Source of the DNA: Flavobacteriales bacterium UBA1494
GTDB lineage: Bacteria; Bacteroidota; Bacteroidia; Flavobacteriales_E; Vicingaceae
Assembly: GCA_905182175.1 (NCBI GenBank)
Contig: CAJJAT010000001.1
Location: 1 to 64,000 of the forward strand
DNA: 64,000 nucleotides
Reading direction: 5' to 3'
The notes beneath the pieces were generated by a model, which saw nothing but the letters and a program-made list of their open reading frames with translations, was not told where the DNA came from and made no database searches. Below, in pieces: positions 4,155 to 20,539 of the stretch. A program made the position numbers and the translations under genes. Positions within the stretch are counted from its first letter, which is position 1. The number at the start of each line of letters is the position of its first letter.

Positions 4155-4209
4155 TTTATTTTCTTACACATCTTAAGTAACATGAAGATTGAAGATACTA
4201 CGCGAACAA

Positions 4210-4234: not shown

Positions 4235-4261
4235 AAATCTATTCTTCATTCAATTAACTCT

Positions 4262-4302
4262 TCCTTCAACTAAAAAGAAAAGATCTCTTTTTAGTTGAAG
4301 GA
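4262..4302 (+). terminator. Long hairpin downstream of the PspA gene
   Basis: TCCTTCAACTAAAAAG (4262-4277) pairs perfectly with CTTTTTAGTTGAAGGA (4287-4302) around a 9-nt loop. A 16-bp stem without mismatch is unlikely by chance. The T tract after it is short and broken, so it may be a weak, processed or bidirectional terminator. Confidence 0.5.
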
Positions 4303-4382
4303 GTGTTTCATTCTCAAATAAAGTTAATTAGTCAAGAAATAATTAATTACTTGAATATTTCTGACAGTGCTAAAAATGTGAA

Positions 4383-5015
4383 GGGTATTTTGACAAACTG
4401 ATGGTTCAACCTGAAGGACTTGAAGGTAAATTTACTTAATTTTATGAGTTTAAAGGGAAAATAAGTGATTTGTGAAACGACGTTTACAATGCTTTTGAAT
4501 CGAAGAAAGTTAAATTAATAGAGAAACGCAACAAACGAACAGCTGCTTTGCAATCATCAGCAGACGAAATTTCGAATGGAGTTCAAAATCTCCGTGCGAA
4601 TTTAAGAGAGTTGGCATATATCGTCGGATATATAGCTTCTGATTTAATGAGTTACAAACTAAGAAGTATTGTACGAGAATTAATTGAACTTGGCGATACG
4701 GTTAAGGCGGTCAAAGTTCAAGGAAAAATTAAATTAACAAAAATGATGCAATTCGCCAATTGCGCGATAAAACAGAACTGCTCGATGGAGATAATTTAAT
4801 CTCTTTTGAAAAACATAAATTTTCGGTAAACAACCAAATACTAGGCCTAACTACTATATCAAGAGGTTCTTGATATGTTTTACCACATATCAAGAACCAA
4901 TTTCTTTGAAGAAAAAAATGAGCCGTTGCTTTTGACAAAACCAGTTTAGCAACAAGATTTAGTTTCAGAAAATAAAACAGCTTAAATCAGATGCTATTGA
5001 ACAAAAGCAAGAGCT
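4383..5015 (+). pseudogene. Remnant of a large DNA-repair ATPase gene
   Basis: One frame reads through GYFDKLMVQPEGLEGKF, a stop (TAA 4437), FYEFKGKISDL, a stop (TGA 4473), NDVYNAFESKKVKLIEKRNK and on to IASDLM and LGDTVKAVKVQ. A shift then gives LRDKTELLDGDNLISFEKHK and FSVNNQILGLTT before more stops. From memory this matches the middle of the roughly 1600-aa 'DNA repair ATPase' of Bacteroidetes (segments like DGEN-x-IKFG-x-HHFSVN). Only about 200 of the residues survive, with at least two in-frame stops and frameshifts. The ATPase core is gone, so the gene is dead. Confidence 0.6.
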
Positions 5016-5400
5016 TAAAGACCCTATTTGAAAGTTGTCAAGTTTGGTTTTAATTCTCCGCTTTTAACGTTTGACCGTTCAACCATCAAATAAACCCCGA
5101 TAAATTTTAATAAAAGCACATTCCTTCCGTAGAATTTACAAGTGTATAAACTATAAAACTAGGATCAAAATTGCATTCTACTTTAAAATATACTTCCTTG
5201 TAAATAAAACATATACACGCTATCCAAAACGTGAAAAATAAAGGTATTATAGAATCGACAAGATCAAGAATAGAGAGAATCAAGCAGGTTCTTAATATGG
5301 CATTTCCATATTCGATTTAAAAGCAAAGCATAATAGCTTAGAGATCGGAAGCATGATTCGATCGTAATAATAATTTAATTATTCCGATTTAAAAGACTTG
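5016..5400. other. Intergenic debris
   Basis: No frame can be read here. It lies between the ATPase remnant and the convergent porin gene and may hold further unrecognisable remains. A small AT-only palindrome (AATAATTTAATTATT) occurs near 5367-5381; I see no proper terminator for the minus-strand operon. Confidence 0.35.
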
Positions 5401-6654
5401 CTAAAAAATCAACTGCAACAGTAACTCACCTCTCAATGTGTTAACAGCTTCCAATGCAGAATTATCCGTTATAGATGAAACAGCTGTTTGTAATTTTAAA
5501 TCGTTGCCTTTAAAGTATTTTGACAACCCTAAACGAATAGCATTCATGTCCCTCAATTGAGAGTTTACGTTTGCATCGAACTCCGAAGTGGTCGAGGAAT
5601 AGCTAAAATCTGCTGCATAGCCACTTTTTGTGACATAACCCAATTGCACGTTCAACGCTGAACCTAACGCCAAAAATTCACTAATTTCTGTAGGATCAAT
5701 TAAGTTTGTTCCTGAAACATCTATGTACGTCCCTTCTAAATTGGTTGCTGTTGCTACCGCATATTCACCCAAAAGGGAAAATCCTTTGTATTTGACCAAT
5801 ACATCGCCGTACAATTGTCGATAATCCGGTAATTGTTGGGCTCCATTTAGATTGTATAGTAAAAAGTCACCATGTCCTTCACCAACTGTATTACTTGACC
5901 CATCGTTAAAACTTGCCGCTCCACCCAAAACTAATTTTACGCTTTCTTCGTGCATTAAATCAGTAATTAGATCGTCGTTCCCTTCAGAAAATTCTCCTAA
6001 AGGATAAAAATCTAAACGTCCTGCGTATTTTAAACCACCCAAGTCAACGTCTCGCGAGTCACTTCCAAAGGAGTTCCTTCCGTCGCCAGAAGTAGCCGCT
6101 ATTTGAGGTACTAAAACCATGTCATTAAATCGAAGTGTATACTCTAAGTACAGTCCAAACTCTCTACCACTGTTGCTTAGCGACGTACTCAATAAACTAC
6201 GGTCGGGAGATTGCAACAGCGTTTCCATCACTTGCATTTCACGATTGTTGGCAATGGTTTGCTTTTGTCCAAAAGTAATGTTAAACTCCGCAGTAGGGTG
6301 AAAAGAGACCCAGGCGTCCAACAACGGGTCCGAAAGACTAAAGTCCGTTTGTAAAAAGAAGCTTACTTTCTCTTCCACTGCTTTACCTGATATATTAAAA
6401 TAACTTCTTTTTGCATTCATGAAATAATCCGCATCTATATCTTCTGTTTTGTCAAAAGAAATATAGGGCTGAATCATCCCTCCTAGCTTAAATTGATATG
6501 CTCCTTCATTAAAGTTGAAGTTTAGGCCGCTCCCCAAATCAAAGCTAGCTTCTACCTTGTTAACGTCGCTATTGTCTTGTGCACTTAAACTGATTGTCGC
6601 AAGAATAAATGTGCTGCAAATAATCTTTTTTAATCTATTTTCCATCTTATTCAT
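5401..6654 (-). CDS. OprP/OprO-like outer-membrane porin (copy 2)
   Basis: This 417-aa protein has a signal peptide (about residues 8-25, ending SLSAQ) followed by a beta-barrel of the phosphate-selective porin O/P family. Family features are the early FKLGGMIQPYISF strand, the periplasmic-side FGQKQTIANNRE segment, and a C-terminal strand ending in Phe (LLLQLIF), as in barrels inserted by BamA. It is the last gene of a tightly packed minus-strand operon and its start overlaps the M14 peptidase stop by 4 bp. It is paralogous to the porin at 8200-9534. The ligand is unknown; the operon suggests peptides or amino-acid derivatives rather than phosphate. Confidence 0.85.
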   Translation of the reverse strand: MNKMENRLKKIICSTFILATISLSAQDNSDVNKVEASFDLGSGLNFNFNEGAYQFKLGGMIQPYISFDKTEDIDADYFMNAKRSYFNISGKAVEEKVSFFLQTDFSLSDPLLDAWVSFHPTAEFNITFGQKQTIANNREMQVMETLLQSPDRSLLSTSLSNSGREFGLYLEYTLRFNDMVLVPQIAATSGDGRNSFGSDSRDVDLGGLKYAGRLDFYPLGEFSEGNDDLITDLMHEESVKLVLGGAASFNDGSSNTVGEGHGDFLLYNLNGAQQLPDYRQLYGDVLVKYKGFSLLGEYAVATATNLEGTYIDVSGTNLIDPTEISEFLALGSALNVQLGYVTKSGYAADFSYSSTTSEFDANVNSQLRDMNAIRLGLSKYFKGNDLKLQTAVSSITDNSALEAVNTLRGELLLQLIF

Positions 6655-8198
6655 CTTAATGAAGGGTCTGTTTTTACAAGTCTATAAATCGGAAGCTCTG
6701 CTCCCTGTTCGGTTTTTATTACTTCAAAAGTGATAAAGCTATTTTTAACCTCAGGCTCTAACACTTCCATTGCCATATTTGCATTGGATTGGTTCATTTT
6801 TACAACAGCCGTGCCTTTTGGAAAGCTCTTGTTGATACTTTTTAATTTTGTATTTACTGTTTGTCGATTGACTCCTTCATATTTTTTCGCTTCTTTTTCG
6901 TATTCCGTAACCGTATAACTCTGCACTTCAAATTCCTTTTCTTCCTCCAAAAGTAAAAGGTCGATTCCAAGGATTTTTAAACGATCTATAATTGCTTTTT
7001 CTTCCGGTAAAATGAAGTAAGCAAAAGGCCTTGGACGCTCCTTCAGTAGTTGTAATTCCAAAGCATCACGAATGGTAACTTCAAAGTTGATGGCCTCGTT
7101 TTTATCCAAGTCAATGGTTTGTATCGTGTCTTGGTAGACTTTCCTTTTTGTATTTAATGCCGCATTAACCTGAGCTTTCTCGGCCTTCACTATTTCTATT
7201 TTCAGCTCATCCCAGTTATCGTAAGCAGTTTTCAGATAAGCAAGTGAGATTAGAAAAGCACTTTGAATTCTTCTTTTAAACGAAGTCCGTCCAATTCCAA
7301 CCCCTCTAATTTCTACCAAGGTAGAAACACAATTAGTAAGGGCGTAAGAAGTTGCACTGGAACGAGAACTTTCGGAGCCTTGGTTAAAGTGAATGTTGCC
7401 CAAATGTTTGGTCGTACTTATATAATCGTGGTGCAATAACTCATTCTCATCTAGCACTTTATGCGCAGCGGTTACAAAGCGGTCTTTGGTGTATTTGCGA
7501 AGGCTTTCAGGCACATTTAAATTGCCAGAATACAAGAACATGGCATCGTAAGCTGAAGTAATTCCATAGGTACTTAAAGCGGTAAAGTCCTTCCTATACG
7601 GTTTATATTCATGTAAATCTAGCGCCACTTCTGCACCAAAATCACTAAAGGCTTGCTTTAAAAAAACACTCTCCTTAATGTTTAGCTTGGTTTGATCTCG
7701 GTTTAAATCCAAACCATTTGCAGCATATCTATTTTCCTTTTCATAGCCATCAATATTGGCCATCGGAATCAATTTTATTTCTAGTTTGTCGAGTAAATAG
7801 GCATATTCTGAATTGTTAAGTAGTTGTTCAATCAGGTATAACACACTCTCAGTGCTGCCCATTTCGTTTCCGTGTAAGCCACCTTGAATCCAGACTTTCA
7901 CCTTATCTGTATTGCCGTTTTTCTTATTCAAATGAACCATCGGAATTTCTTTGTCCTTTTGGCTCGTTCCAATAAAGCTCATGCTCATTAATTCTTTATG
8001 GTTGTTGGTCTTCTCGCTTAGAAAGCTGAGCAACTCTTCATAACTAGTGTACCCTTTCTTTTTCTGAAAAGCGGGGGTATTGATGGTAATATCTAATTCA
8101 GGGAAAAACTTTTCAGTTACTTTTTTTGATTGTGGATTCATCTGTGCCTTGCAAGTGGCAGCGACAAAAACGAAGAGAAGGAATGCTATTCTTTTCAT
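6651..8198 (-). CDS. M14-family zinc carboxypeptidase, exported
   Basis: This 515-aa exported peptidase has a hydrophobic N-terminus ending VAATCKAQ, so a signal peptide and possibly a lipoprotein cysteine at 16. The M14 zinc site is complete: H109 and E112 in GGLHGNEMGS, and H196 in DLHEYKP. The substrate arginine lies in GLDLNRDQTK and the catalytic glutamate is E297 in TLVEIRG. The C-terminal 200 residues form an additional domain of unknown role. It would cleave C-terminal residues or side-chain-linked groups in the periplasm. It overlaps the downstream porin by 4 bp and follows the upstream porin by one base, placing it in the DcuC-IadA-porin operon. Confidence 0.9.
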   Translation of the reverse strand: MKRIAFLLFVFVAATCKAQMNPQSKKVTEKFFPELDITINTPAFQKKKGYTSYEELLSFLSEKTNNHKELMSMSFIGTSQKDKEIPMVHLNKKNGNTDKVKVWIQGGLHGNEMGSTESVLYLIEQLLNNSEYAYLLDKLEIKLIPMANIDGYEKENRYAANGLDLNRDQTKLNIKESVFLKQAFSDFGAEVALDLHEYKPYRKDFTALSTYGITSAYDAMFLYSGNLNVPESLRKYTKDRFVTAAHKVLDENELLHHDYISTTKHLGNIHFNQGSESSRSSATSYALTNCVSTLVEIRGVGIGRTSFKRRIQSAFLISLAYLKTAYDNWDELKIEIVKAEKAQVNAALNTKRKVYQDTIQTIDLDKNEAINFEVTIRDALELQLLKERPRPFAYFILPEEKAIIDRLKILGIDLLLLEEEKEFEVQSYTVTEYEKEAKKYEGVNRQTVNTKLKSINKSFPKGTAVVKMNQSNANMAMEVLEPEVKNSFITFEVIKTEQGAELPIYRLVKTDPSLR

Positions 8199-8199
8199 A

Positions 8200-9534
8200 T
8201 TAAAAGGACAATGAGGTTATGATTCGTGCAATCCATTCGTCTCCGCCAATTGGGTCACTGTTGAGATCGTTTATACCTCCATCGGCATCAACATACGTGA
8301 AGGAACCCTGAACTTTGATTCCATAACTTCTATCGAAATACTTAGACACTCCAATCGTATAATATTCTGGACGATTATAAAAGGTTCCATTGTTCAAGAA
8401 AGAGTGTTCGTCGGCATCGATATACGTGTAACGACCATCTATCGACCATAAGCTTTTAAATAAGTAGCCAGCCTGGATATTAAACGCCTGCCCCAGCATC
8501 ATTCTACCTCTTACAAAATTTTCTACGTCCTGAACGCCTTCAACCTCTAAAGCTCTAGAAGTACTTCCGTCATTTCTGACTCGCTGAGTGATATTATCAG
8601 GAACATCAGCACTTGAGCCTGCAAATTCGCCCAACATAGAGAATCCTTTGTATTTAAAAAGGAAATCAACTCCGTATTTAGTGTAGTCTGGCAAAGCTAC
8701 ATTATTCATATCATCTAAATAAAGAATAGCACCACTAGCTCTTCCCCTTCGGCTACTCATGCCATTGTTAACACTATAAGTTCCTCCAACTACTAGTTTA
8801 GGCGTATTCTCACGAACCATATCTACTTGACGGAATTGACCGAACCTTGTAAAAAGTCCAAAGGGTAAAAAGTCTAGTCTACCTCCATACTTTAATCCTC
8901 CAAAATCGCTGCCAAATACGTTTAATCCGTCGCCATTGGTAAGGGTAAAAGATGGTTTGATGTACGCTACAGGACCTAGTTTATAAGACCCTTCTAAAAA
9001 TATTCCAAACTCTCGGATGCTGGCAAAAGCAGATGTCAATCGACTTCTTTCGACTAACTGCAGTGTATGGGAACCCATATATAATTCTCGGTTGTCGGTC
9101 GGGGTTGCCCGTTGTCCAAATGTAATGCGCGTTCTTTTGGTGATGCTGTAACGAACCCAAGCATCCAATATAGGCGCATCCGATCCGTCGTCTCCAACTT
9201 CTCCGGTTCCACTTAAGTCGACCTGAAAGCGGTAATCAATTTTATATTTTTCAGCATCACCGGTTAAGCGCAAACGGAATCGTCTTAATCTAAATCGAGT
9301 TAAATTGTTGTCTACTCCATCCCCCGTTGAGTTTTTTAGTTCAATAAAAGGTTGAACATACCCTCTAAGGTTAATGGAATAATCCTCATTCCCGGAAAAG
9401 GTTAACCCCTCAGCAAAGTTGTACTTGTTCAGTTTTGGATTTTGAGCATGAAGCTTTAATGCGGTCAATAAAACCACAATAATTAGTGAAATTAAAACCT
9501 GAAATCGGTTTGAGGTGCCATTTATTTTTGTCAT
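8200..9534 (-). CDS. OprP/OprO-like outer-membrane porin (copy 1)
   Basis: This 444-aa protein has a signal peptide (hydrophobic residues about 12-29, ending KLHAQ) and an OprP-type beta-barrel. Recognisable are INLRGYVQPFIELK near the start, TRFRLRRFRLRLTGDAEKYK, the FGQRATPTDNRELY segment and the terminal strand ARIITSLSF. It shares the layout and several strands (GGLKYGGRLDFLPFG, YKGFSMLGEFA) with the porin at 5401-6654, so the two arose by duplication within the operon. The start overlaps the amidohydrolase stop by 4 bp. The basic stretch after residue 80 would line the pore and favour anionic substrates. Confidence 0.87.
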   Translation of the reverse strand: MTKINGTSNRFQVLISLIIVVLLTALKLHAQNPKLNKYNFAEGLTFSGNEDYSINLRGYVQPFIELKNSTGDGVDNNLTRFRLRRFRLRLTGDAEKYKIDYRFQVDLSGTGEVGDDGSDAPILDAWVRYSITKRTRITFGQRATPTDNRELYMGSHTLQLVERSRLTSAFASIREFGIFLEGSYKLGPVAYIKPSFTLTNGDGLNVFGSDFGGLKYGGRLDFLPFGLFTRFGQFRQVDMVRENTPKLVVGGTYSVNNGMSSRRGRASGAILYLDDMNNVALPDYTKYGVDFLFKYKGFSMLGEFAGSSADVPDNITQRVRNDGSTSRALEVEGVQDVENFVRGRMMLGQAFNIQAGYLFKSLWSIDGRYTYIDADEHSFLNNGTFYNRPEYYTIGVSKYFDRSYGIKVQGSFTYVDADGGINDLNSDPIGGDEWIARIITSLSF

Positions 9535-10670
9535 GAGAAACTGTCTTTAGCGACCACATTAAAATTATCCATCATTTGTTTTCCTTTTGCGAATACATCA
9601 CAAAGTTCAAGGTCTTTCGTTAAGCAGCAGAAATCTGCATCGTAACCTACTTTAACATGCCCCTTGTTTTTTAAACCTAAATTCTTGGCAGGATTTGTTG
9701 TAATTATTTTAAAAGCGTCTGAGATGGACACTTCAGATTCTTTCAACAGCTCAACTACTTGTCCAAAATTTTGGTCAATGGGCGCTCTTCTAAAACCAAT
9801 CAACTTGCCATTTTCATCTAACCTTTCTAAACCTGCATTCCCGTCGCTACTAAAGGTCATTGTTTCTATATCTACGCCGTTTTCTAGGGCATACAAAACA
9901 GATTTATACGGTTTAGTATATTGAGAAGCTCCTGTAGTAATGTCAATCATTCCACCCATTTTAGCGAAACGCATAGCATCTTTAAACAACTCTTCTGTTC
10001 TTCCAACATGGGTTGGCGAAATATTTTCTATTGGAAAATGATGCTCTTCTACTAAACGAAACAAACAATCTAATCGCTCTGGATGATTGCCCAAATGAAG
10101 GTGCATAATGCCCTTCTTCTCTCCAACCATTCCTCCAACCCTCACTTGCCGAACTATTCTGAGTAATTCTAAGTCGGTTGGGTAAGAGGACCGGATATCT
10201 GCAATAGCAATTTTACAACCCAACACCTTATCGATGAAAATCATTTCATCTTGAATATTTTCCATGATGTGAGTTGGCTCTAATCCGTAATAACCGGTGA
10301 ACATGTAACAAGACATGCCTTCCGTATTTAAGCTTTTAACTTTTGCATATAAACTTTTAATACTTCTGGTAGAACCATCAGTGCCTAAAAGGCCTACTGC
10401 TGTAGTTGTTCCTGTAGCAATAAAATCGGTCATCTTTATTTCAGGCGTCATCGAGGAAAACCCGTGTTTCCCTCCTGCTCCAATAACATGCACATGCTGG
10501 TCAATAAATCCTGGTAAGATAATTTTACCTTGTGCATTCCATTCCTTCAATCCTTCAACATTACATTCAATGTTTTTTTGGATGGATAAAATCTTACCAC
10601 CGCCAACAAGTATGTCGTTTATTCCTAAATCTTCGGGAGAATAAATATGTGCATTTTTTATTAAAAGCAT
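9531..10670 (-). CDS. Isoaspartyl-dipeptidase-like amidohydrolase (IadA family, altered substrate site)
   Basis: This 379-aa cytoplasmic metallo-hydrolase aligns with E. coli IadA at a constant offset of 9 residues. The metal ligands are all present: H59 and H61 (IDQHVHV), carbamylated-lysine position K153, H192, H221 and D276. So are Y128, R160 and R224, which bind the substrate. Two substrate residues differ: the position of E77, which in IadA holds the free alpha-amino group, is K68, and that of S289 is G280. Thus the hydrolase chemistry is intact, but the substrate is probably not an ordinary beta-aspartyl dipeptide. It sits one base downstream of the DcuC-type carrier and overlaps the first porin, in one operon controlled, I infer, by the MocR regulator. 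Confidence 0.85.
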   Translation of the reverse strand: MLLIKNAHIYSPEDLGINDILVGGGKILSIQKNIECNVEGLKEWNAQGKIILPGFIDQHVHVIGAGGKHGFSSMTPEIKMTDFIATGTTTAVGLLGTDGSTRSIKSLYAKVKSLNTEGMSCYMFTGYYGLEPTHIMENIQDEMIFIDKVLGCKIAIADIRSSYPTDLELLRIVRQVRVGGMVGEKKGIMHLHLGNHPERLDCLFRLVEEHHFPIENISPTHVGRTEELFKDAMRFAKMGGMIDITTGASQYTKPYKSVLYALENGVDIETMTFSSDGNAGLERLDENGKLIGFRRAPIDQNFGQVVELLKESEVSISDAFKIITTNPAKNLGLKNKGHVKVGYDADFCCLTKDLELCDVFAKGKQMMDNFNVVAKDSFS

Positions 10671-10671
10671 G

Positions 10672-12036
10672 TTAAATAAAGTGATAGGTTAATAAAAAAA
10701 CTAAGGCAACTACCAGTGGAATGATGTTGCGTTTAACGATTTCGATGGTGCTCACCCCTGCAATTTCGGAGGTTGCAATAATTACTCCTGCAACAGGCGA
10801 TACAGTCCTGCCCATTGAAGCAGCAAAATTCATCGGTAAAATCATTGTTGTGGTTTGAATTCCAAATTTTGCAGCAATTTTTGGAACCAACGGGGCAAAA
10901 GCAAAAAATGATGCATTCCCACTCCCCATAAGCATAGATGCTAAAAAGATCATAATTACCATGACAAGTGATATTCCTATTGCTCCTAATCCAATGTTTT
11001 GCGAAGCATCAATCAAACCATCAATAAATCCAAGAGCAATTAAGCCTTTCGCAAAAATATCAGCAGCAATTATTAGGGTAACCACTGTTTTAAAAATGTT
11101 GCCCATTCCGTTCCAAAAAACGGCAAGCGATTCTAAAACTGTTTTTAATTTCTTTGTTCGAATAATTTCAAATATTAGCGCTACAAAAAGACTAATAAAC
11201 ATCGCTGTTGTGGTATCTAGGACAATTGGTGATTTAAAAAATTGAAACAAATCTGAAAAAACGATCAATAATAAAAGCGGTAAGATTGGAATGATGGCAT
11301 ATATCGCAGGGGCTTTGAATCCCGATTTTTCAATGTACTTTTCTTCTGTTTTTGAAATTTCTATTTTACTATCGAAATAGCGGTTAACGAAATAATACGT
11401 TACCATTAAAACCACACACATCGGAAGCATTAATGGCAATTGTTGGGTTACAAAGTAATGGATAGAATCTACCTGTGCAATTTGAGTTGCGCTTGCAGTA
11501 ATTGCTGAAGCAGGACCAATTCCAAATGCTGTGCAAGCTGTAATGACAGAAACGGCCGAAATTCTGCTTACCCCCAATTTTAATAGAATGGGAAAAATGG
11601 AAGCCATTAACAATAAACTTAACCCTGCTGCTGAAGGAATACAAACAAATAGAAGTTGCCCGATTGGTAAAACCGCAACAGTAGTTAAATGAGGATATTT
11701 TTTTAACAGCGACAAAGGTTTCATGGCCAAATTTACCAGCGCATCTGAGGCTCCAATTTTATCAATGTACGCTACAAAACCGCCAATAGCCATTATCATT
11801 AACCCGACGCCGGCATTCGTTTTACCGAAAGATTCTTTAATGTATCTAAAAAGATCAAAGCCAGACCAGCCAGTTTCATTTTTCAATGCAGGTAAATCAG
11901 AACCGATGAATTCGGCAATAATTAGCATGAATAAGCCTGCTAGAAGTAAAACAGCATGCGGGTAAAACTTTTTAAGCAGCAAGGTAGCTACAAGAAAAAT
12001 AAAAAGAATGGATATAATTGAACCTACGACTAACAT
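10672..12036 (-). CDS. DcuC-family carboxylate/dipeptide carrier
   Basis: This 454-aa inner-membrane carrier has about 12 hydrophobic helices and belongs to the DcuC (C4-dicarboxylate uptake C) family of the ion-transporter superfamily. Typical are the FIGSDLPALKNETGWSGFDL linker, the GVGLMIMAIGGFVAYIDKIG helix and the SGNASFFAFAPLVP re-entrant motif near the C-terminus. E. coli DcuC moves fumarate and succinate. Here, one base upstream of the IadA-like enzyme, it may import the acidic dipeptide-like substrate or exchange it for a dicarboxylate. It starts 6 bp after the lamin-tail lipoprotein gene. Confidence 0.82.
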   Translation of the reverse strand: MLVVGSIISILFIFLVATLLLKKFYPHAVLLLAGLFMLIIAEFIGSDLPALKNETGWSGFDLFRYIKESFGKTNAGVGLMIMAIGGFVAYIDKIGASDALVNLAMKPLSLLKKYPHLTTVAVLPIGQLLFVCIPSAAGLSLLLMASIFPILLKLGVSRISAVSVITACTAFGIGPASAITASATQIAQVDSIHYFVTQQLPLMLPMCVVLMVTYYFVNRYFDSKIEISKTEEKYIEKSGFKAPAIYAIIPILPLLLLIVFSDLFQFFKSPIVLDTTTAMFISLFVALIFEIIRTKKLKTVLESLAVFWNGMGNIFKTVVTLIIAADIFAKGLIALGFIDGLIDASQNIGLGAIGISLVMVIMIFLASMLMGSGNASFFAFAPLVPKIAAKFGIQTTTMILPMNFAASMGRTVSPVAGVIIATSEIAGVSTIEIVKRNIIPLVVALVFLLTYHFI

Positions 12037-12042
12037 CTGGGC

Positions 12043-12681
12043 TTAAAAAGAAGTTCCGTCATTTCTTGTTCCCGGAGAAAATAAAAGCGCACTGTTGTCC
12101 GTATGCTGCACAAAGGCCCCTGTTATATCCGGATTTCTAGTATACGATTCGTTGGGGTTGCCAGAAAGTTCATCAGAATTAAAGATGAACGCCCATGCTC
12201 CAGAAGCGTCTTTTATCCCAATAACTTCACCTGAATTATTAAAGTTAAACCCGGAAATCGCATTTAGAATGGTCGCTCCTCCGAATGTACCGGTAGGAGT
12301 TCCACCACCAAAAACGACCAACGCTCCTTTGGAAGGAAGAATTGAATTAGCGGGAAAAGTATATTGATTAGACCCTGAAGTTGTATCGTCCCAAATTTCA
12401 TATCCTCCAAGATCAACATCTGCAACACTTGCATTGAAAAGCTCAATAAAAGAATCATCATCCTGGCTATAGTTCCCATCTCCATTAGCATCGCCGTCCA
12501 AACCGTTATTAGATGGATCATACAACACTTCATTAATTATAATGGGTGCACCATCCACAACGAAAGGAGGAATGACAGTAACACTTCCCAAAGGCTGTAG
12601 CTCCGCATCGTCCGTCTCGCATGAACTAAATGAGAAAGTGAAAACTGTTAAAACGACAAGAAATAAAAGATTGGTTTTCAT
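12043..12681 (-). CDS. Lamin-tail-domain (LTD) surface lipoprotein
   Basis: This 212-aa protein has a lipoprotein signal (TVFTFSFSSC, lipid cysteine at about 21) and one lamin-tail domain (about 45-205), an Ig-like fold found on bacterial secreted and surface proteins. The domain opens with PIIINEVLYDPSNNGLDG and contains an EF-hand-like loop DANGDGNYSQDD, predicted to bind calcium. It is a close paralogue of the T9SS-sorted protein encoded just upstream; the two LTDs are nearly colinear. It is the first gene of the minus-strand operon after a terminator, so it may act as the surface-binding component of the uptake system. Confidence 0.8.
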   Translation of the reverse strand: MKTNLLFLVVLTVFTFSFSSCETDDAELQPLGSVTVIPPFVVDGAPIIINEVLYDPSNNGLDGDANGDGNYSQDDDSFIELFNASVADVDLGGYEIWDDTTSGSNQYTFPANSILPSKGALVVFGGGTPTGTFGGATILNAISGFNFNNSGEVIGIKDASGAWAFIFNSDELSGNPNESYTRNPDITGAFVQHTDNSALLFSPGTRNDGTSF

Positions 12682-12707
12682 GAATTTTATAATTTCTAGT
12701 TGAAATG

Positions 12708-12745
12708 AAAAAGGACAAAAGCGTTAAACGCTTTTGTCCTTTTTT
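12708..12745 (-). terminator. Intrinsic terminator between the two LTD genes
   Basis: An almost uninterrupted palindrome reads AAAAAGGACAAAAGCG ... CGCTTTTGTCCTTTTT around a tiny loop, with T tracts on both strands. It directly follows the T9SS LTD gene on the minus strand. Read-through or a separate promoter must feed the operon starting at 12681. Confidence 0.85.
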
Positions 12746-12754
12746 GATGTGCTA

Positions 12755-13573
12755 TTATTGTTTTACAAATCTTGATGTAGCGATCTTAGACTCTGCCGTT
12801 ACTCGTAAGAAATAAATTCCAGGAGTTAATGCTTCAATATTTATTGCGTTTCCTTGGGTACTTTCAGCAATCATTAGCTGTCCTGTGATACTAAAAATCT
12901 GAAATTGCTCAATTTTCACAGCTGCCTCAATCGTGATTACGTCAATTGCAGGGTTTGGATAAACCTTCAATGAAAAAAATGTGTTGTTTTCGGTCAAACC
13001 CGAAGATAGGTTAAATGAAGTCCCATCTATTTTTGCTCCAGGAGAAAATTTTAAAGTTGTGTTGTCCTCATGCTGCTCGAACACCCCTGTTATATCCGGA
13101 TTACGAGTATAAGATTCATTTGGATTACCCGAAAGAATATCAGAATCAAAAAATAGAACCCACGCTCCGCTAGAATCTTTGATTCCAATTACTTCACCGG
13201 AATTATTAAAATTAAAACCGTTTACAGCGTTTAATACCAACGAAGTTCCAAATGGTCCTGTTGGTGTTCCTCCGCCAAATACTACTACTACTTCTTGGGC
13301 CGGAACGCTAGTATTATTAGGAAAGGTATATTGAACAGTTCCACCTGAAGTGGTATCATCCCAAATTTGGTACCCACTCATGTCAAAAGCACTAGAACTG
13401 TTATTGTAAATCTCCACAAATGAGTCATCATCCTGACTGTAAGTGCCATCTCCATTTGCATCACCATCTAAACCTGAATTAGAAGGATCGTAAAGAACCT
13501 CATTGATTACTAGTTGTGCATGCACAATGGATGCACAAAAAAGAAAGGAAGCTAAAAAGTAAATTTTTTTCAT
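12755..13573 (-). CDS. Secreted LTD protein with T9SS sorting domain
   Basis: The ATG at 13573 is chosen (MKKIYFLASFLFCASIVHAQ, a clean signal peptide, 272 aa); the longer frame would run through the regulator's binding sites. One lamin-tail domain (about 21-185) includes the EF-hand-like loop DANGDGTYSQDD. The C-terminal 70 residues are a type A T9SS sorting domain (LKVYPNPAIDVITIEA, then GQLMIAE, GIYFLRV), so the protein is exported to the cell surface. It is divergent from the MocR-type regulator, with the mirrored operator sites in between, and it ends in a strong terminator. Confidence 0.85.
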   Translation of the reverse strand: MKKIYFLASFLFCASIVHAQLVINEVLYDPSNSGLDGDANGDGTYSQDDDSFVEIYNNSSSAFDMSGYQIWDDTTSGGTVQYTFPNNTSVPAQEVVVVFGGGTPTGPFGTSLVLNAVNGFNFNNSGEVIGIKDSSGAWVLFFDSDILSGNPNESYTRNPDITGVFEQHEDNTTLKFSPGAKIDGTSFNLSSGLTENNTFFSLKVYPNPAIDVITIEAAVKIEQFQIFSITGQLMIAESTQGNAINIEALTPGIYFLRVTAESKIATSRFVKQ

Positions 13574-13622
13574 ATAAATTAAGTTTAAATATTGAATCAA
13601 ATTAACTGCAATAATTGCTAAA

Positions 13623-13660
13623 TTTAGCATACCAATTATTTATAATTTAAACTACCAATT
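13623..13660. promoter_or_regulatory. MocR operator, left: two direct repeats 23 bp apart
   Basis: TTTAGCATACCAATT (13623-13637) and TTTAAACTACCAATT (13646-13660) agree at 12 of 15 positions, and their starts are 23 bp apart, about two helical turns. Reversed, the same word occurs twice at 15146-15183 with identical spacing. The inner copy ends on the TTG start codon of the regulator, so binding should repress it. The pair also lies upstream of the divergent LTD gene. MocR/GabR-type regulators are known to bind paired direct repeats. Confidence 0.75.
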
Positions 13661-15147
13661 TGAAATCAATTGAAAATCTTATTCAAAGCACTTTTGTCAA
13701 GGAAAATATACAAAATATAAATACAGATAATCGCCTTTACATAAAATTATACAAAGCGATACAACAGTTTATAGATGATTCAGAGATTCCAACAGGATCG
13801 TTCTTGCCTGCTACAAGATTGTTAGCCGCACAATTAAACATTTCTAGAAGTACCGTTTTAAAAGCCTACGAGCTATTGGTTCTGGAAAGCTATATCGAAT
13901 CAAAACAAGGTTCGGGTTATTTAGTTGTGAAACAAAAAGAACAGCACTTTCAGAAAACAAAACAATTCGATACAAGTAAATATCCCTCCTTATCTGATTT
14001 AGGAAAATCATTTTTAGACAATATAAATTTAATCAACACCATCGATGACAAAGCTGTAGCTTTTCGTCCTGGCGTTCCTCCACTAGATATATTTCCGGTA
14101 AATCAGTGGAAAAATCTTTCTAACCTTCATTGGAGACACATAAAGTCCTCTTCTTTAACCTATTCTGCTGCATCAGGTAATCTGAAATTGAAAAAAAACA
14201 TAGCCAATTATTTAACTCTAACAAGAGGCATCAAATGCCAAAGTGATCAAGTAATTATTGTTTCCGGTTCACTTCAGTCCTTATACGTAATTAGTAGTGT
14301 GTTAATTAACCCAAACGACAAAGTCATTATGGAAAATCCTACTTTCCCTAATGTCTATTCCATTTTTAAAAGCTTAAGAGCCTCCATAGAAGGAGTTCCA
14401 GTTGATAAAGAGGGTATAATTGTTTCACAAATAACATCTAATTCAGTAAAACTCATACACACTACCCCTTCTGGCCATTACCCTACAGGCGTTAGGTTAA
14501 GTATGAGAAGAAGAAAAGAGCTCTTAAAGTATGCCGAAAAAAATAACGCTTATTTAATAGAAAATGACTTTGAACATGAAGTCAGTAATTACAAAAAATC
14601 CATGCCCTCCCTATTCAATATCGACCAACAAGGTAGAACCATTTTCATGGGAACTTTCAACCGCTTATTGCATCCTTCTCTAAGAATTGGATACATGGTT
14701 TTACCCTATCCCTTAATTAAACCGGTAGAAGCTTTACTCACCCACTCTCATCGATTTGTAGCGCCCTCAATTCAAATTGTTTTAAATCAATTTATCGAAA
14801 AAAAGCACTTGTATGATCATATCAAGAATGTGATAAAAACTGCTGAAGAACGGAAAAAAATCTTTATCGAGCTTTTCGAAGAATATTTTTCAGACTCCAT
14901 GACATTGGTGAACAAAAACAAAAATAGCCTCCACCTCTTAGCTATTTTTAAAAAAGGCGCTAAAAGAAAAAATTTGTTACACGAATTTGCCAAAAAAAAT
15001 ATTTTGGTGCATGCCTACAGTAAATGTTTTGTTGGAAAAGAGATGATAGAAGGGTTAATTATCGGGTATTCATCTGTTAACGAAATAAAAATGAAAGTAA
15101 AACTAAAACAAATGGCCGGTATTTATAAGGATATGAAGGAATATTAA
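13660..15147 (+). CDS. MocR-type regulator (GntR wHTH fused to aminotransferase-like domain)
   Basis: This 495-aa regulator starts at TTG; an in-frame TAA lies 12 bp upstream and no ATG is available nearby. Residues about 20-95 are a GntR winged helix (GSFLPATRLLAAQLNISRST, then YIESKQGSGYLVV). Residues about 120-495 are a fold-type I aminotransferase domain (FRPGVPPLDIFPVNQW, SGSLQSLYVISSVLINPND, ENDFEHEV). The PLP-lysine segment, usually GTFSKTLFPSLRLGY, is GTFNRLLHPSLRIGY: R335 replaces the lysine, so no normal internal aldimine can form. It may bind PLP or an amino-acid ligand non-covalently. Operators on both sides suggest that it controls both arms of the locus and itself. Confidence 0.88.
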   Translation: MKSIENLIQSTFVKENIQNINTDNRLYIKLYKAIQQFIDDSEIPTGSFLPATRLLAAQLNISRSTVLKAYELLVLESYIESKQGSGYLVVKQKEQHFQKTKQFDTSKYPSLSDLGKSFLDNINLINTIDDKAVAFRPGVPPLDIFPVNQWKNLSNLHWRHIKSSSLTYSAASGNLKLKKNIANYLTLTRGIKCQSDQVIIVSGSLQSLYVISSVLINPNDKVIMENPTFPNVYSIFKSLRASIEGVPVDKEGIIVSQITSNSVKLIHTTPSGHYPTGVRLSMRRRKELLKYAEKNNAYLIENDFEHEVSNYKKSMPSLFNIDQQGRTIFMGTFNRLLHPSLRIGYMVLPYPLIKPVEALLTHSHRFVAPSIQIVLNQFIEKKHLYDHIKNVIKTAEERKKIFIELFEEYFSDSMTLVNKNKNSLHLLAIFKKGAKRKNLLHEFAKKNILVHAYSKCFVGKEMIEGLIIGYSSVNEIKMKVKLKQMAGIYKDMKEY

Positions 15148-15183
15148 TTGGTATGCTAGATTGAATTATTTTGGTATGCTAAC
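15146..15183. promoter_or_regulatory. MocR operator, right: two direct repeats 23 bp apart
   Basis: AATTGGTATGCTAGA (15146-15160) and TTTTGGTATGCTAAC (15169-15183) share the word TTGGTATGCTA with starts 23 bp apart. They are the mirror image of the pair at 13623-13660. They begin on the regulator's stop codon and lie about 50-85 bp before the esterase gene, the right place to control the plus-strand arm. Confidence 0.75.
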
Positions 15184-15230
15184 CATGAGGGAATAAAAAT
15201 TTATTTTAGACTTTTACTATTTGATTTATT

Positions 15231-16169
15231 ATGAAGATTTTTTCATTTCCGATTGTATTGGTATTTTCAATGCTTGTATTAACGCTCAATTCCTGCGATA
15301 ACAATGAAACGTTTCCTGAGGAAATCATCAACACTTCAAATCCTATAATTACCATTAAGGGAACAGGCTCCTTTGTTTTTGACTCATTTGTGCCGTTAGC
15401 CGATAAGCCAACCAACGTTTATTACCACATTCCTGCAGGAGTGACAGACAATAGTCGAATTGTAGTGATCTTTCATGGTGCAGCAAGAGATGCGTTGGAA
15501 AGTCGAGATGCGTTGATTGCCCATGCTGACCGAAATCAACAAATCTTAATTGTACCTGAATTTTCAAATCAAAATTTTCCCGGCGGAGATGGATATAACC
15601 TTGGGAATGTTTTTGATGACGGCGACAATCCTTCTTCTGCATCACTAAATAGCGAGGGAGAATGGGCTTTCTCTTTAATAGAACCCTTGTTTGATTACGT
15701 AAAACTAGCAACTGCTAATGTTTCACCTTCTTATCATGTTTTTGGTTTTTCAGCAGGCGGTCAATTTGCTCATCGCTTTGTTTTCTTCAAACCAAATGCT
15801 CGCTTCAATAAAGTCGTTGCAGCATCGTCAGGTTGGTATACCATGCCCGATGATCAAGTTGATTTTCCTTACGGTATAGAAGAAAGTCCAATCTTAGCGA
15901 GCAGTTTAACTAGTATTTTTTCGAAACAATTAACCGTATTAGTTGGCCAAGCAGACAATGATCCAAATTCTGGAATAAGAAGCAATGCTATAGTTGATGT
16001 TCAAGGAAACAATCGATTAGCCAGAGCAAACTATTTCTACAATCAAAGCAATTCCATAGCAAGCAGCATTGGTGCAAGCTACAATTGGCAATTCGTTTCT
16101 TTGCCAAATGTAAATCATGACTTAGTCGGAGCAGCTGACTTTGCGTTCAATACTATTTTTATAAACTAA
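15231..16169 (+). CDS. Alpha/beta-hydrolase (esterase) lipoprotein
   Basis: This 312-aa protein has a lipoprotein signal (VLTLNSC, cysteine at 22) and an alpha/beta-hydrolase domain similar to PHB-depolymerase/feruloyl-esterase-like enzymes. The oxyanion motif VVIFHGAARDA, the nucleophile elbow GFSAGGQ, the acid in VGQADNDPN and the histidine in NVNHDL give a complete Ser-Asp-His triad. It would hydrolyse an ester or similar bond outside the inner membrane. It starts 84 bp after the MocR gene, beyond the right-hand operator, and ends 8 bp before the DASS carrier gene. The substrate is not deducible from the sequence. Confidence 0.8.
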   Translation: MKIFSFPIVLVFSMLVLTLNSCDNNETFPEEIINTSNPIITIKGTGSFVFDSFVPLADKPTNVYYHIPAGVTDNSRIVVIFHGAARDALESRDALIAHADRNQQILIVPEFSNQNFPGGDGYNLGNVFDDGDNPSSASLNSEGEWAFSLIEPLFDYVKLATANVSPSYHVFGFSAGGQFAHRFVFFKPNARFNKVVAASSGWYTMPDDQVDFPYGIEESPILASSLTSIFSKQLTVLVGQADNDPNSGIRSNAIVDVQGNNRLARANYFYNQSNSIASSIGASYNWQFVSLPNVNHDLVGAADFAFNTIFIN

Positions 16170-16177
16170 CCCATAAA

Positions 16178-17632
16178 ATGCTGACCAAGAAAAATATAGG
16201 ATTACTCTTAGGTCCACTTTGCTTTATTCTAATTCATTTCTTTGTTCACCCTGAAGGATTATCAGAACATGGAAGAAGTGTCTTGGGCATTACCTTGTGG
16301 ATTGCGATTTGGTGGGTAACTGAGGCAATTCCTATCGAAATGACTGCTCTTCTGCCCATCATACTCTTTCCCCTCTCGGGTGCTCTAAGTTTAAAAGAAA
16401 CGGGAGCAGCTTACGGGCACAAATTTATTTTTCTTTTTGTCGGGGGCTTTATTTTAGCAATTGCCATTGAAAAATGGCAACTTCACAAAAGAATTGCGCT
16501 CCATATCATTAAAATTATCGGTACCAGCTTAATCAACATCATGTTGGGTTTTATGTTAAGCACAGCGTTGTTGTCTATGTGGATTTCCAATACAGCCACC
16601 ACCGTTATGATGTTACCTATTGGAATGGCAGTAATTGCGCAATTAAGTGATAGAAATACGCTCAAAAAGGACACACCTTTTGGTAAAGCGCTAATGTTAT
16701 CGATAGCCTACAGCGCCTCTATTGGTGGCATGGCTACCTTAATTGGAACTCCTCCAAATTTAATTTTTGCCGGAGTTATTCAGGAATTTTACGGTATTGA
16801 AATTTCCTTTTTACAGTGGTTTACATTTGGCCTACCCATTAGCGTTCTTCTGCTTTTCATTTGTTGGGCTTATTTGAGTAAGGTAGCCTTCAACCTTAAG
16901 GGACAGGAATTTCCCGGAGGGACAGAAATAATAACCAAACAGCTTGTAGACCTTGGTAAAATGAGTCGCGAAGAGAAAACAGTTATGGTTGTCTTTCTCC
17001 TCACTGCATTTGCATGGATTTCTCGATCCTTTCTCCTTAAAGATTTCATTCCTAATATAGACGATACAATTATCGCCTTAATTGCAGCGGTTTTGCTCTT
17101 CATTATTCCATCAAGTAAAAAAGGAGAAAAGCTTCTAACTTGGCACGATGCAGTTAAGTTACCATGGGGCGTTCTACTACTTTTCGGAGGCGGAATTGCA
17201 TTGGCCATTGGTTTTGCAGACAGTGGTTTAGCAAGCTGGGTTGGCAATCAGCTGAGTGTTCTACAAGGAATGTCGCTCATTGTTATGGTATTTATAATAA
17301 TTGCAGCTGTTAATTTCTTAACCGAAATCACTTCCAACTTAGCAACAACGGCGATACTCCTTCCTATTCTAGCAGCATTAGCAGTAGTTGTCGATGTGCA
17401 TCCATTTTTACTTCTTGCGGCGGCAACGGTTTCCGCTTCTTGTGCTTTTATGCTGCCCGTTGCAACAGCACCAAATGCTTTGGTTTTTGGTTCAGGTTAC
17501 GTTAATATGTCTGACATGATTCGAGCAGGTGTTTGGTTAAATGTTATTTCTATCGTTGTTTTAACCCTTATTGTATACTTCGTTTTACCTGCCGTTTGGG
17601 ATTTTGAAGCCGTTGGTTATCCGACTTTTTAA
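16178..17632 (+). CDS. DASS/SLC13-family Na+-coupled anion symporter
   Basis: This 484-aa protein has about 12 hydrophobic helices and both hallmark motifs of divalent-anion/sodium symporters: SNTATT at about 137-142 and TSNLATT at about 383. The N-terminal WWVTEAIPIEMTALLPI segment is also diagnostic. Family members import dicarboxylates, tricarboxylates or sulfate with sodium. It follows the esterase gene by 8 bp, and an aminotransferase gene lies 61 bp downstream. The product of the outer hydrolases in this locus, probably an anionic amino or keto acid or a sulfonated compound, is the likely cargo. Confidence 0.88.
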   Translation: MLTKKNIGLLLGPLCFILIHFFVHPEGLSEHGRSVLGITLWIAIWWVTEAIPIEMTALLPIILFPLSGALSLKETGAAYGHKFIFLFVGGFILAIAIEKWQLHKRIALHIIKIIGTSLINIMLGFMLSTALLSMWISNTATTVMMLPIGMAVIAQLSDRNTLKKDTPFGKALMLSIAYSASIGGMATLIGTPPNLIFAGVIQEFYGIEISFLQWFTFGLPISVLLLFICWAYLSKVAFNLKGQEFPGGTEIITKQLVDLGKMSREEKTVMVVFLLTAFAWISRSFLLKDFIPNIDDTIIALIAAVLLFIIPSSKKGEKLLTWHDAVKLPWGVLLLFGGGIALAIGFADSGLASWVGNQLSVLQGMSLIVMVFIIIAAVNFLTEITSNLATTAILLPILAALAVVVDVHPFLLLAAATVSASCAFMLPVATAPNALVFGSGYVNMSDMIRAGVWLNVISIVVLTLIVYFVLPAVWDFEAVGYPTF

Positions 17633-17693
17633 AAGTATTTATTGGTTTTGAAGGTAGACAGCTATTTTGTAAGGTTTAACTACCTTTATTTTT

Positions 17694-18609
17694 ATGCTAC
17701 ACGGAACTCATAATGCAATAGATGACCATCGAAATGAGGATATCATAATTTCTATCAACGGAATTTTTCACAAAAGACAAGATGCAAAAATATCGGTTTT
17801 TGACAGTGGATATTTAGTAGGCGACGGTATTTGGGAAGGTTTTCGGCTAAAAAACGGGAAACTCATTTTTATGAAAGAGCATTTAGACCGTTTGTGGCAA
17901 TCTGCAAAAGCGGTGCACATGAAATTTCCTTTTACTAAGAAAGAGTTGGTGGAACAAGTTTGGAATGTATTGAATCAAAACCAAATGACGGATGGAGTTC
18001 ATGTTCGTTTGATGGTTACCCGAGGAATAAAAAAGACACCTTCGCAAGACCCTCGCTTAACGGTTAGCGGGCCAAATGTGGTAATTATACCAGAATACAA
18101 AAAAGCAGATGCTGCAACAAAAAAAAAAGGGCATTACTCTATTTACATCAACCGTTAGAAGAGGTTCGCCCGATTATTTAGATCCAAGATTAAATTGCCA
18201 CAGTAAGTTGCACGAAGTGCAAGCATTAATCCAAGCCATTGAAGCAGGATACGATGAAGCGCTAATGCTAGATGCTAATGGTTTTGTTTCGACCTGCAAT
18301 GCAACGAACTTCTTCATGGTCAAAAATGGCGAAATCTGGACATCTACCGGAGAATACTGCATGAATGGAATAACTAGAGGAAACATTATTAGGGTCTGCA
18401 ATGAGAATGGAATTCCGGTTTTTCAGAAGAATTTTTCACTCTTTGAGGTATACGATGCTGACGAATGTTTTGTAACCGGATCTTTCGGCGGAGTTACACC
18501 AGTTACCAAGATTGATGGACGAGTTATTGAAAACCGGCAAGCAAATTCGATGTCAAGTCATTTGTCAGATTTATACAACAATTTAGTGGAGAAAGAAATA
18601 GAAGCCTAA
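17694..18609 (+). CDS. Class IV aminotransferase, reading frame broken at an A10 run
   Basis: Two overlapping frames (17694-18158 and 18109-18609) together encode one PLP-dependent class IV (IlvE/D-amino-acid type) aminotransferase of about 304 aa. The first half has KISVFDSGYLVGDGIWEGFR and the second has FTSTVRRGSPDYLDPRLN, the PLP lysine in NCHSKLHEVQ, and CNATNFFMV. The switch is exactly at ten A residues (18119-18128). With nine the frame is continuous (KKKGITLFTS). It is therefore a fresh frameshift, an assembly error, or a slippage site at which RNA polymerase restores part of the transcripts. The gene ends one base before the sulfotransferase-like gene. Confidence 0.85.
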
Positions 18610-18610
18610 A

Positions 18611-19333
18611 ATGGATAATTTCAAGCGCATTTGTATGTGGTCTGGTCCAAGAAATATTTCAACCACCATGATGTACTCTTTTGCCCAACGGAAGGATACC
18701 AAGGTTTTTGATGAACCACTTTATGCGCATTATTTAAAAAATTCACATGCCGCGGGATATCATCCAGGAGCAAAAGAAATACTCTTGAAGTATGAAAATT
18801 CAGGAGAAAAAGTTATCGAGCAGATGCTTTCAAATCAAGAAGCTCCTGTTCAGTTTTACAAACAAATGACGCATCACCTGCTAGAATTAGATCGCAACTT
18901 CATGAAATCCGTGCATCATATTTTATTAACTCGTGATCCAAAAGAAATGCTCCCTTCTTTTGCCGCAGTAATTGACCATCCAGCTTTAGCCGATACAGGA
19001 TACTCAGATCACGTTAAGTTAATTGACTACTTTACTATAAATAATATTCCATTTACTGTTTTAGACTCTAAGAAAGTACTTCTAAACCCAAAAGAACAAC
19101 TCGAGAAGCTATGCACTACTTTAGGTATTTCATTTTTAAGTGCGATGCTTGAATGGCAGAAAGGCGCAAGACAAGAAGATGGAGTCTGGGCAAAATACAG
19201 GTACAAAAACATTCATAATTCAACTGGATTTAAGCCTTATTCTTCAAAAAAAGAGGCATTTCCTGAGTATTTGCGGCCACTTTTAAATGAATGCACTCCA
19301 TACTATAAGCGATTAAGCAAATTGGCATTGTAA
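18611..19333 (+). CDS. Sulfotransferase-like P-loop protein
   Basis: This 240-aa cytoplasmic protein has a PAPS-type P-loop at residues 11-19 (SGPRNISTT) and the 3'-phosphate-binding signature LLTRDPKEMLPS (R108, S116). It belongs to the sulfotransferase-like family often annotated beside class IV aminotransferases. From memory, plants carry the same two domains fused in the BCAT-like proteins BCAL. It starts one base after the aminotransferase, so the two are translationally linked and probably act on one metabolite, for example sulfo-transfer to an amino or keto acid. Whether it really uses PAPS is not shown by the sequence. Confidence 0.75.
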   Translation: MDNFKRICMWSGPRNISTTMMYSFAQRKDTKVFDEPLYAHYLKNSHAAGYHPGAKEILLKYENSGEKVIEQMLSNQEAPVQFYKQMTHHLLELDRNFMKSVHHILLTRDPKEMLPSFAAVIDHPALADTGYSDHVKLIDYFTINNIPFTVLDSKKVLLNPKEQLEKLCTTLGISFLSAMLEWQKGARQEDGVWAKYRYKNIHNSTGFKPYSSKKEAFPEYLRPLLNECTPYYKRLSKLAL

Positions 19334-19659: not shown

Positions 19660-19691
19660 TTGCATAATACCTTTTTTAAACTATATCTTTG
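19660..19691 (+). promoter_or_regulatory. Bacteroidetes-type promoter
   Basis: TTG at 19660-19662 and TATCTTTG at 19684-19691 (TAnnTTTG) are separated by 21 bp, within the range of flavobacterial promoters. Transcription would begin near 19698, which rules out the upstream ATG at 19689 and decides for the start at 19722. Confidence 0.65.
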
Positions 19692-19721
19692 TGTGGCACT
19701 GGTACTAAAAAGCTAATCGAA

Positions 19722-20174
19722 ATGAAAAAAATAACTAGCCTTATTCTGACAACTGCCCTAAGCATGACAATTGCCGTGGCAGGAGAAGGGTACGAAAAAT
19801 TATACTCCAAACTAAAAGCAAATCATACAGAAACCTTTAGCATGAGTCTTTCTAAAAACATGATTGATTTTTTCGACATGGATTTAGACTTTAACGGGAA
19901 AGAGAAATTAATAACGGGAGATTTCCTTGAAGGAAAGATGATCGTTTTCAAAGATGTCGTTTCAACCAAAAACATACTTACCATTTTTGAATCGGAAAAT
20001 TATGTAAGAATAGAAGATAAAGAGGATACAATTAAAACAGATGATGGCGAGGCCTATTTATATATTAAACGAAATGGTAAAGACGTTTCTGAAGCCCACT
20101 TTATACTTGTAAATGACGAAGGGAAAGTCACGATATTATCTGTACTTGGTGACATTAAAGTAAAAAACAAATAA
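19722..20174 (+). CDS. DUF4252-like exported protein
   Basis: This 150-aa protein has a signal peptide (MKKITSLILTTALSMTIAVA, cleaved before GEG). The remaining part resembles DUF4252 proteins of Bacteroidetes, ending EAHFILVNDEGKVTILSVLG. The start at 19722 is chosen because the promoter's -7 box covers the upstream ATG. It leads an apparent operon with PadR, PspC and a 55-aa secreted peptide (gaps of 15, 11 and 3 bp). The function is unknown; an envelope-stress role is inferred from context. Confidence 0.65.
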   Translation: MKKITSLILTTALSMTIAVAGEGYEKLYSKLKANHTETFSMSLSKNMIDFFDMDLDFNGKEKLITGDFLEGKMIVFKDVVSTKNILTIFESENYVRIEDKEDTIKTDDGEAYLYIKRNGKDVSEAHFILVNDEGKVTILSVLGDIKVKNK

Positions 20175-20189
20175 AAACAACAAGCTCCT

Positions 20190-20528: not shown

Positions 20529-20539
20529 AACAAACCGCA

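Follow-up and report, generated by a model that had tools for sequence, protein, structure and literature searches.

Gene content and organization of the locus

The 64,000-nt window studied here spans positions 1 to 64,000 (forward strand) of contig CAJJAT010000001.1 from Flavobacteriales bacterium UBA1494, family Vicingaceae (GCA_905182175.1), whose genome of 3.33 Mb lies on 45 contigs in an assembly that is 96% complete. Ten genes between positions 5401 and 17632, arranged around a MocR-type regulator, very probably form a locus for the utilization of an extracellular beta-linked poly-dicarboxylate. From the center outwards, the minus strand carries a lamin tail domain (LTD) protein with a C-terminal sorting domain of the type IX secretion system (T9SS) (12755-13630; PF00932, PF18962, and TIGR04183), an LTD lipoprotein (12043-12681; PF00932), a DcuC-type dicarboxylate carrier (10672-12036; PF03606, E = 5.6e-84; NF037994, 386 bits over a cutoff of 100), an IadA-like metal hydrolase (9531-10670), a porin of the Porin_O_P family (porin B, 8200-9534; PF07396, E = 3.6e-08), an exported M14 zinc carboxypeptidase (6651-8198; PF00246, E = 2.5e-24), and a porin-like outer membrane protein (porin A, 5401-6654), which is the last gene of the operon. 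On the plus strand, the MocR-type regulator (13660-15147) is followed by a lipoprotein of the PahZ1 type, a putative endo-hydrolase of beta-linked polyacids (15231-16169; PDB 6ve6, E = 4.3e-62; 9o7u, E = 8.8e-55), and a DASS sodium-coupled anion carrier (16178-17632; PF00939, E = 2.1e-85; TIGR00785, 341 bits over a cutoff of 198.6).

All the open reading frames (ORFs) named in the initial annotation were present, and the compact minus-strand operon that it described was borne out: neighboring genes overlap by 4 nt at two junctions and are 1, 1, and 6 nt apart at the others. The exception to this packing was the space between the two LTD genes, with a strong terminator- or attenuator-like hairpin on the minus strand that has perfect 18-nt arms (12708-12744). 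This intergenic stretch folded at -24.0 kcal/mol, and hairpins were found at the same place in two related loci (L055, -19.0 kcal/mol; L056, -20.2 kcal/mol). It is possible that the hairpin acts as an attenuator, giving more of the T9SS-sorted LTD protein than of the operon behind it.

Profile searches agreed with the families proposed at first for the M14 protein, the 8200-9534 porin, the DcuC carrier, both LTD proteins and the T9SS tail, the two domains of the regulator, the DASS carrier, and a sulfotransferase-like gene farther downstream (Sulfotransfer_5). Of the two porins claimed, only porin B was confirmed in this way. For porin A, an ORF whose position is kept in relatives, neither Pfam nor NCBIfam gave a match at E 0.001, and its designation as a porin comes only from ~30% identity to porin B (over regions in relatives).

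Conservation across genomes

To place these genes in a wider context, we used 79 related loci, taken from the best 80 of 98 confirmed matches in a single public-genome scan with a seven-sequence PahZ1 alignment. Their flanks extend up to 10 kb, many of them cut by contig ends; three pairs share one contig each (L066/L122, L068/L132, and L072/L133), and six loci (L055, L056, L086, L087, L089, and L115) match genomes compared earlier in this analysis. Besides PahZ1, the most frequent genes were DASS (50 loci), porin B and M14 (49 each), MocR (45), DcuC (41), IadA (38), and porin A (35). In 57 of the 79 loci, PahZ1 was accompanied by one or more of the genes DcuC, IadA, porin B, M14, and porin A. 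The set of PahZ1, MocR, LTD, DcuC, IadA, porin B, and M14 occurred together in 30/79, of which 21 also had DASS, and 9 of those 21 porin A as well. Polaribacter, Winogradskyella, Tenacibaculum, Flavobacterium, Mangrovimonas, and Flaviramulus were among the hosts, and Flavobacterium rakeshii and Mangrovimonas aestuarii are examples of carriers in culture.

Within the Vicingaceae, an IadA gene was present in 3/46 genomes, and the two others keep the gene order of the window (in G030 with a contig break within IadA); a search at the level of the order returned the same 46 genomes. The same order was also found in three genomes of other families (G334, G090, and G380), the last two lacking DASS next to PahZ1. 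Among 395 genomes of the phylum, an IadA of the locus type (at least 60% identity) appeared in four, all of them within the five genomes that have a PahZ1 of at least 41% identity; the fifth, G098, had no IadA of this type. Six other IadAs (31 to 35% identity) came from genomes of this set without a PahZ1 match. The corresponding probability of co-occurrence by chance is ca. 5e-9 (5/C(395,4)), a value that is indicative only, because the genomes are not independent and the thresholds were set after seeing the data.

The description of a MocR-centered, bidirectional utilization locus for an acidic, aspartate-like substrate thus stood, with both arms together in other families and on dozens of contigs. 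Of the genes for which joint occurrence had been proposed, MocR, the IadA-like hydrolase, DcuC, M14, and DASS were found together (at least 21/79 loci with all of them), while the class IV aminotransferase and the sulfotransferase-like gene were not (0/79; see below). The result is a conserved, mostly marine system that is wider and better defined than at first reading.

The MocR-type regulator and its putative operators

The regulator combines a GntR DNA-binding domain with an aminotransferase-like domain (PF00392 and PF00155), and pairs of half-sites 23 bp apart lie on both of its sides, at 13621-13660 on the left and 15146-15182 on the right. They belong to two inverted arms (13624-13660 and 15146-15182), each with direct repeats spaced 23 bp start to start, confirming the motif copies that the initial annotation had placed on both flanks. 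We then looked at TGGTA/TACCA pairs 8 to 45 bp apart near MocR in the window plus 39 loci (leaving out L122, L123, L132, L133, and MocR ORFs of up to 1300 nt). Of 53 pairs, 50 were spaced 23 bp and three 28 bp. A 23-bp pair was found at the start side of MocR in 28/40 entries and at its end side in 22/40, against 0 to 0.05 entries per group in shuffles that keep base composition only. The orientation of MocR is reversed in 25/40 entries, yet the gene still lies between the two arms. The locus had been said to be a chance neighborhood if its arms were never found together in relatives and the flanking motifs were not conserved; gene order and the 23-bp operators are both kept, a strong result against this. 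Many members of the MocR family are described as binding direct repeats whose copies are separated by two or three helical turns (PMC5320631). The regulator of the window would bind the 23-bp-spaced repeats on both sides of its gene and so switch both arms.

The aminotransferase-like domain departs from that of well-known MocR regulators at one residue. The lysine that binds pyridoxal 5'-phosphate (PLP) in GabR and in the PdxR-type protein 7pq9 is Arg335 in the window and arginine in 40/40 locus MocRs examined (excluding L037, L038, L040, L123, L132, L133, and ORFs of up to 430 aa). The locus regulator therefore resembles GabR and PdxR in its two domains and direct-repeat operators but not in the PLP-binding lysine. 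In 14 other MocRs, this position was lysine in 11 and arginine in three.

The PahZ1-type lipoprotein

What had been annotated as an esterase lipoprotein could be placed more exactly, as a putative hydrolase that groups with poly(aspartic acid) hydrolase-1. The window protein was 39.5% identical to 6ve6 and 36.5% to 9o7u, two solved structures of this enzyme, which is known from bacteria such as Pedobacter KP-2 and Sphingomonas KT-1. In a midpoint-rooted FastTree phylogeny of 85 sequences (ORFs of 280 to 335 aa plus 12 chosen distant homologues), 6ve6 and 9o7u paired (0.889) within a clade of 72 members that also held the window protein and all 69 locus proteins (support 0.99), apart from the 12 distant homologues and LpqC. 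Cys22, Ser174 in its GxSxG motif, and His296 were invariant in seven sequences. This grouping points to cleavage of beta-linked C4 polyacids as the probable activity.

The Pedobacter enzyme PahZ1KP-2 is described as cutting endo-wise and only the beta-amide bonds of poly(Asp), with a trimer as minimum substrate and dimers left over, and as accepting D-Asp in three of its four subsites (PMC4456602). Since dimers remain, an enzyme that acts on them is expected downstream, for which the IadA-like protein is a candidate. The PahZ1 of Pedobacter KP-2 and Sphingomonas KT-1 shares with the window protein the grouping and the serine and histidine, but it is an enzyme studied on a synthetic polymer, while the window copy is part of a regulated locus and its substrate is a predicted one. 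Homologues were also found on plasmids (8 records, 28 to 37% identity), and the ten-gene block was in none of the three plasmid neighborhoods inspected.

The IadA-like hydrolase

The IadA-like protein scored 383 bits against a TIGR01975 cutoff of 331. We compared residues in the window copy and 33 IadA ORFs of 370 to 400 aa, out of 38 loci with an IadA match. The metal ligands H59, H61, K153, H192, H221, and D276 were invariant in these 34 copies, and the window protein keeps Thr97, Tyr128, Arg160, and Arg224. Two positions set the locus enzymes apart from isoaspartyl dipeptidase IadA, which the window protein otherwise resembles in score, metal ligands, and these four residues. Position 68 was lysine in 33/34 copies and asparagine in one (L104), while its equivalent was glutamate in Escherichia coli IadA (E77) and in 6/6 other Bacteroidota IadAs. 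Position 280 was glycine in 34/34 and cysteine or serine in 5/5 other Bacteroidota IadAs. The glutamate is reported to bind substrate in the E. coli enzyme (PMC10206079) and, in CpsIadA, to contact the substrate nitrogen N11 together with a threonine (PMC5517026). We interpret N11 as the nitrogen of the free amino group.

Predicted export, capture, and transport proteins

In the M14 protein, the zinc ligands, arginine, and catalytic glutamate (H109, E112, R167, H196, and E296) were invariant in 30 sequences, and an N-terminal hydrophobic helix was taken as a signal peptide. Its structure model (predicted local distance difference test score 92) had classical carboxypeptidases as best PDB matches. 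An aspartoacylase-like role was set aside, as the PF24827 and NCBIfam matches were weak and the model resembles classical carboxypeptidases. The LTD lipoprotein, which we take from the Bacteroidota surface-lipoprotein signal to be probably at the cell surface, has a GDANGDG-like motif reminiscent of a calcium-binding loop; the Cys21 column and G63, D64, A65, and N66 were invariant among 22 sequences. The only significant matches of its structure model were lamin tail domains, so they gave no clue to a ligand.

Put together, these families suggest a route from the cell surface to the cytoplasm. The surface LTD proteins might hold the polyanion while the PahZ1-type lipoprotein would cut its beta linkages endo-wise, as published for a named relative, and the exported M14 carboxypeptidase may trim the oligomers. 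Porins O and P prefer anions, and the two porins of the locus could admit the oligomers through the outer membrane. The DASS and DcuC carriers, assigned by profile match, would then import C4 acids and short oligomers, and the IadA-like hydrolase, presumably cytoplasmic, would split the dimers.

The natural substrate

That the system serves some beta-linked poly-dicarboxylate is something that we hold with high confidence. Which one is more tentative: for beta-poly(L-malate) or a close relative without an alpha-amino group, our leading candidate judging from residue changes and carrier families, we see a little less than an even chance. Beta-poly(malate) is the oxygen isostere of beta-poly(Asp), the same backbone with O in place of NH. 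A substrate that is not an amine is proposed because, across the locus family, the IadA-like enzyme has lysine instead of glutamate at position 68 and MocR arginine instead of the PLP-binding lysine. Both changes would remove amine recognition, and together with the two carriers of dicarboxylate families their simplest common cause would be a substrate without an alpha-amino group. The substrate had been proposed as acidic and derived from an amino acid; the first part holds, and the second is put in doubt by the loss of amine-recognition residues in both proteins. One step further, and tentatively, the PahZ1 clade may consist of natural polymalate-type depolymerases that happen to cut synthetic poly(Asp), with IadA and MocR re-tooled in a widespread marine locus for a beta-polyester.

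Several points weigh against polymalate. The activity described for PahZ1 is on poly(Asp) and not on polymalate, and a carboxypeptidase such as the M14 protein, with its peptidase fold, would be more at home on amides than on esters. A review describes one polymalate hydrolase from bacteria, a 43-kDa protein of the Comamonas outer membrane, and reports it to be without serine- or metallo-esterase activity (PMC9210645); in this it is unlike PahZ1 or M14. An abundant marine source of polymalate is not established. Arginine in three of the 14 other MocRs makes the loss of the PLP-binding lysine unusual but not unique, and Lys68 could instead suit another stereochemistry or an acylated amine. Finally, 13 of 14 tested genomes with an IadA-free PahZ1 locus had no IadA anywhere in the genome (several of them being incomplete), which means that PahZ1 does not require an IadA in every host.

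Some of this evidence would fit a substrate that does bear an amine, namely beta-poly(aspartate) or an isoaspartyl-rich peptide such as aged protein. PahZ1 and M14 would shorten it outside the cell, the carriers would import isoaspartyl dipeptides, and the IadA-like protein would be a true isoaspartyl dipeptidase releasing aspartate. We regard this as quite possible, if on the doubtful side. Both structures in the clade of the locus PahZ1 carry the name poly(aspartic acid) hydrolase-1, the products left by PahZ1KP-2 are described as beta-Asp dimers (PMC4456602), and the IadA-like protein passes the family cutoff with all its metal ligands. The genome of the window had no Asparaginase_2 (IaaA family) match, while five of seven genomes with a reduced locus lacking IadA had one; this family is common anyway, being present in 10/15 genomes tested. 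The glutamate that contacts the nitrogen, however, is replaced by lysine in all but one locus copy, the regulator has lost its PLP-binding lysine throughout, and no amino-acid-type carrier family was found among the Pfam and NCBIfam matches of the block.

An aspartyl compound with beta linkages and an amino group that is either blocked or of inverted configuration, such as N-acylated oligomers or D-isoaspartyl peptides with a carboxylate near Lys68, is unlikely in our judgment. Lys68 with the invariant Gly280 could mean a rearranged pocket around the alpha-carbon, and the tolerance of PahZ1KP-2 for D-Asp in three of four subsites would agree with this (PMC4456602), but no dedicated deacylase or racemase family was found among the ten genes and the change in MocR is explained less simply. 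A chance neighborhood without shared function, for which one could cite the patchy distribution of the locus (IadA in 3/46 family genomes) and the chance proximity of the aminotransferase/sulfotransferase pair in the window, is refuted for the ten genes and has next to no probability, given gene order kept across families and dozens of contigs, conserved operators, and co-occurrence of the IadA type with PahZ1.

Comparison with known systems

The polysaccharide utilization loci of Bacteroidota likewise gather surface lipoproteins, outer membrane entry, exported hydrolases, inner carriers, and a regulator in one locus. SusC/SusD were not found among the ten genes, which have two porins and LTD proteins instead, and the predicted substrate is no glycan. 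Cyanophycin degradation clusters (cyanophycinase plus IadA/IaaA) have an IadA-type enzyme in common with the window, but their cyanophycinase has no counterpart here and the carriers of the window belong to anion families. Cyanophycin as substrate was rejected, as there was no match to TIGR02069 in this genome (assembly 96% complete). No description of such a locus appeared among the literature matches listed, drawn from open PubMed Central, outside which most subscription papers lie.

Poly(aspartic acid) hydrolase-1 is known from work on a synthetic polymer. A conserved, mostly marine PahZ1 locus implies some natural beta-linked polyacid common enough to maintain the gene set, and the paired residue changes in enzyme and regulator give a sharp prediction about its nature. 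Were polymalate the substrate, these would be candidate genes for its degradation by bacteria, for which the review, where it treats the subject, describes only a purified protein (PMC9210645).

The aminotransferase/sulfotransferase pair

The plus-strand arm had been thought to continue through a class IV aminotransferase and the sulfotransferase-like gene (17694-19333), which form a conserved pair of their own. The aminotransferase was not intact in the window, where a frameshift within ten consecutive A splits it into two ORFs in different frames (17694-18158 and 18109-18609); the 11 relatives compared have it unbroken in a single frame. The frameshift may have arisen in sequencing or may be a genuine loss. 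The sulfotransferase-like gene was present in 13/46 family genomes, with the aminotransferase adjoining in 12 of the 13. Neither was found in the 79 PahZ1 loci, nor in L013-L015, which rules both out as locus members, and a DASS gene beside the pair was seen only in the window (short loci of up to ~3.7 kb). The pair is an unrelated neighbor; with its exclusion, the steps of cytoplasmic transamination and (de)sulfation of the substrate fall.

Locus variants and neighboring genes

A reduced form occurred in 12/79 loci, from small marine genomes (1.1 to 1.5 Mb, seven tested), which retain PahZ1 together with M14, porin B, LTD, and DASS and show no MocR, DcuC, or IadA. In L036, the neighbors of PahZ1 and DASS are a SusC/SusD pair and a protein with DUF4886. 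L036, L070, and L087 represent a locus type with SusC/SusD, DUF4886, DASS, an Ig-like protein, and PahZ1 and without MocR, IadA, and M14; its families were assigned from L036 and extended to the other two by shared protein clusters. In L050, a distant locus, the PahZ1 homologue is accompanied by LTD, a TonB receptor, a PorV-like protein, M20, M14, an AbgT carrier, and an RpiR regulator. Association with outer membrane entry and anion carriers is thus a recurrent feature of PahZ1-type enzymes. Other distant homologues (e.g., L041-L049) had none of the other window genes nearby.

In L050, L051, and L053, of which L050 was scanned for families, the distant PahZ1 homologue lies near LTD and M14 relatives. 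The M20 protein adjoining it in L050 was considered as a PahZ2-like partner and rejected, its closest solved relatives being peptidase T and tripeptidase. A second PahZ1 copy was found past the last porin in L068/L132, L072/L133, L088, L123, and L039. Gammaproteobacterial PahZ1 genes (L093, L108, L114, and L116) lie near one common large protein cluster, in L108 a CotH-kinase/CBM6 protein.

Beside the end of the operon in the window, the stretch 4160-5400 had no ORF of at least 100 aa and possibly holds gene remains. Envelope stress genes flank the locus on both sides, with PspA upstream (3432-4154) and a PadR regulator and a PspC/ToastRack membrane protein downstream (19689-22402).

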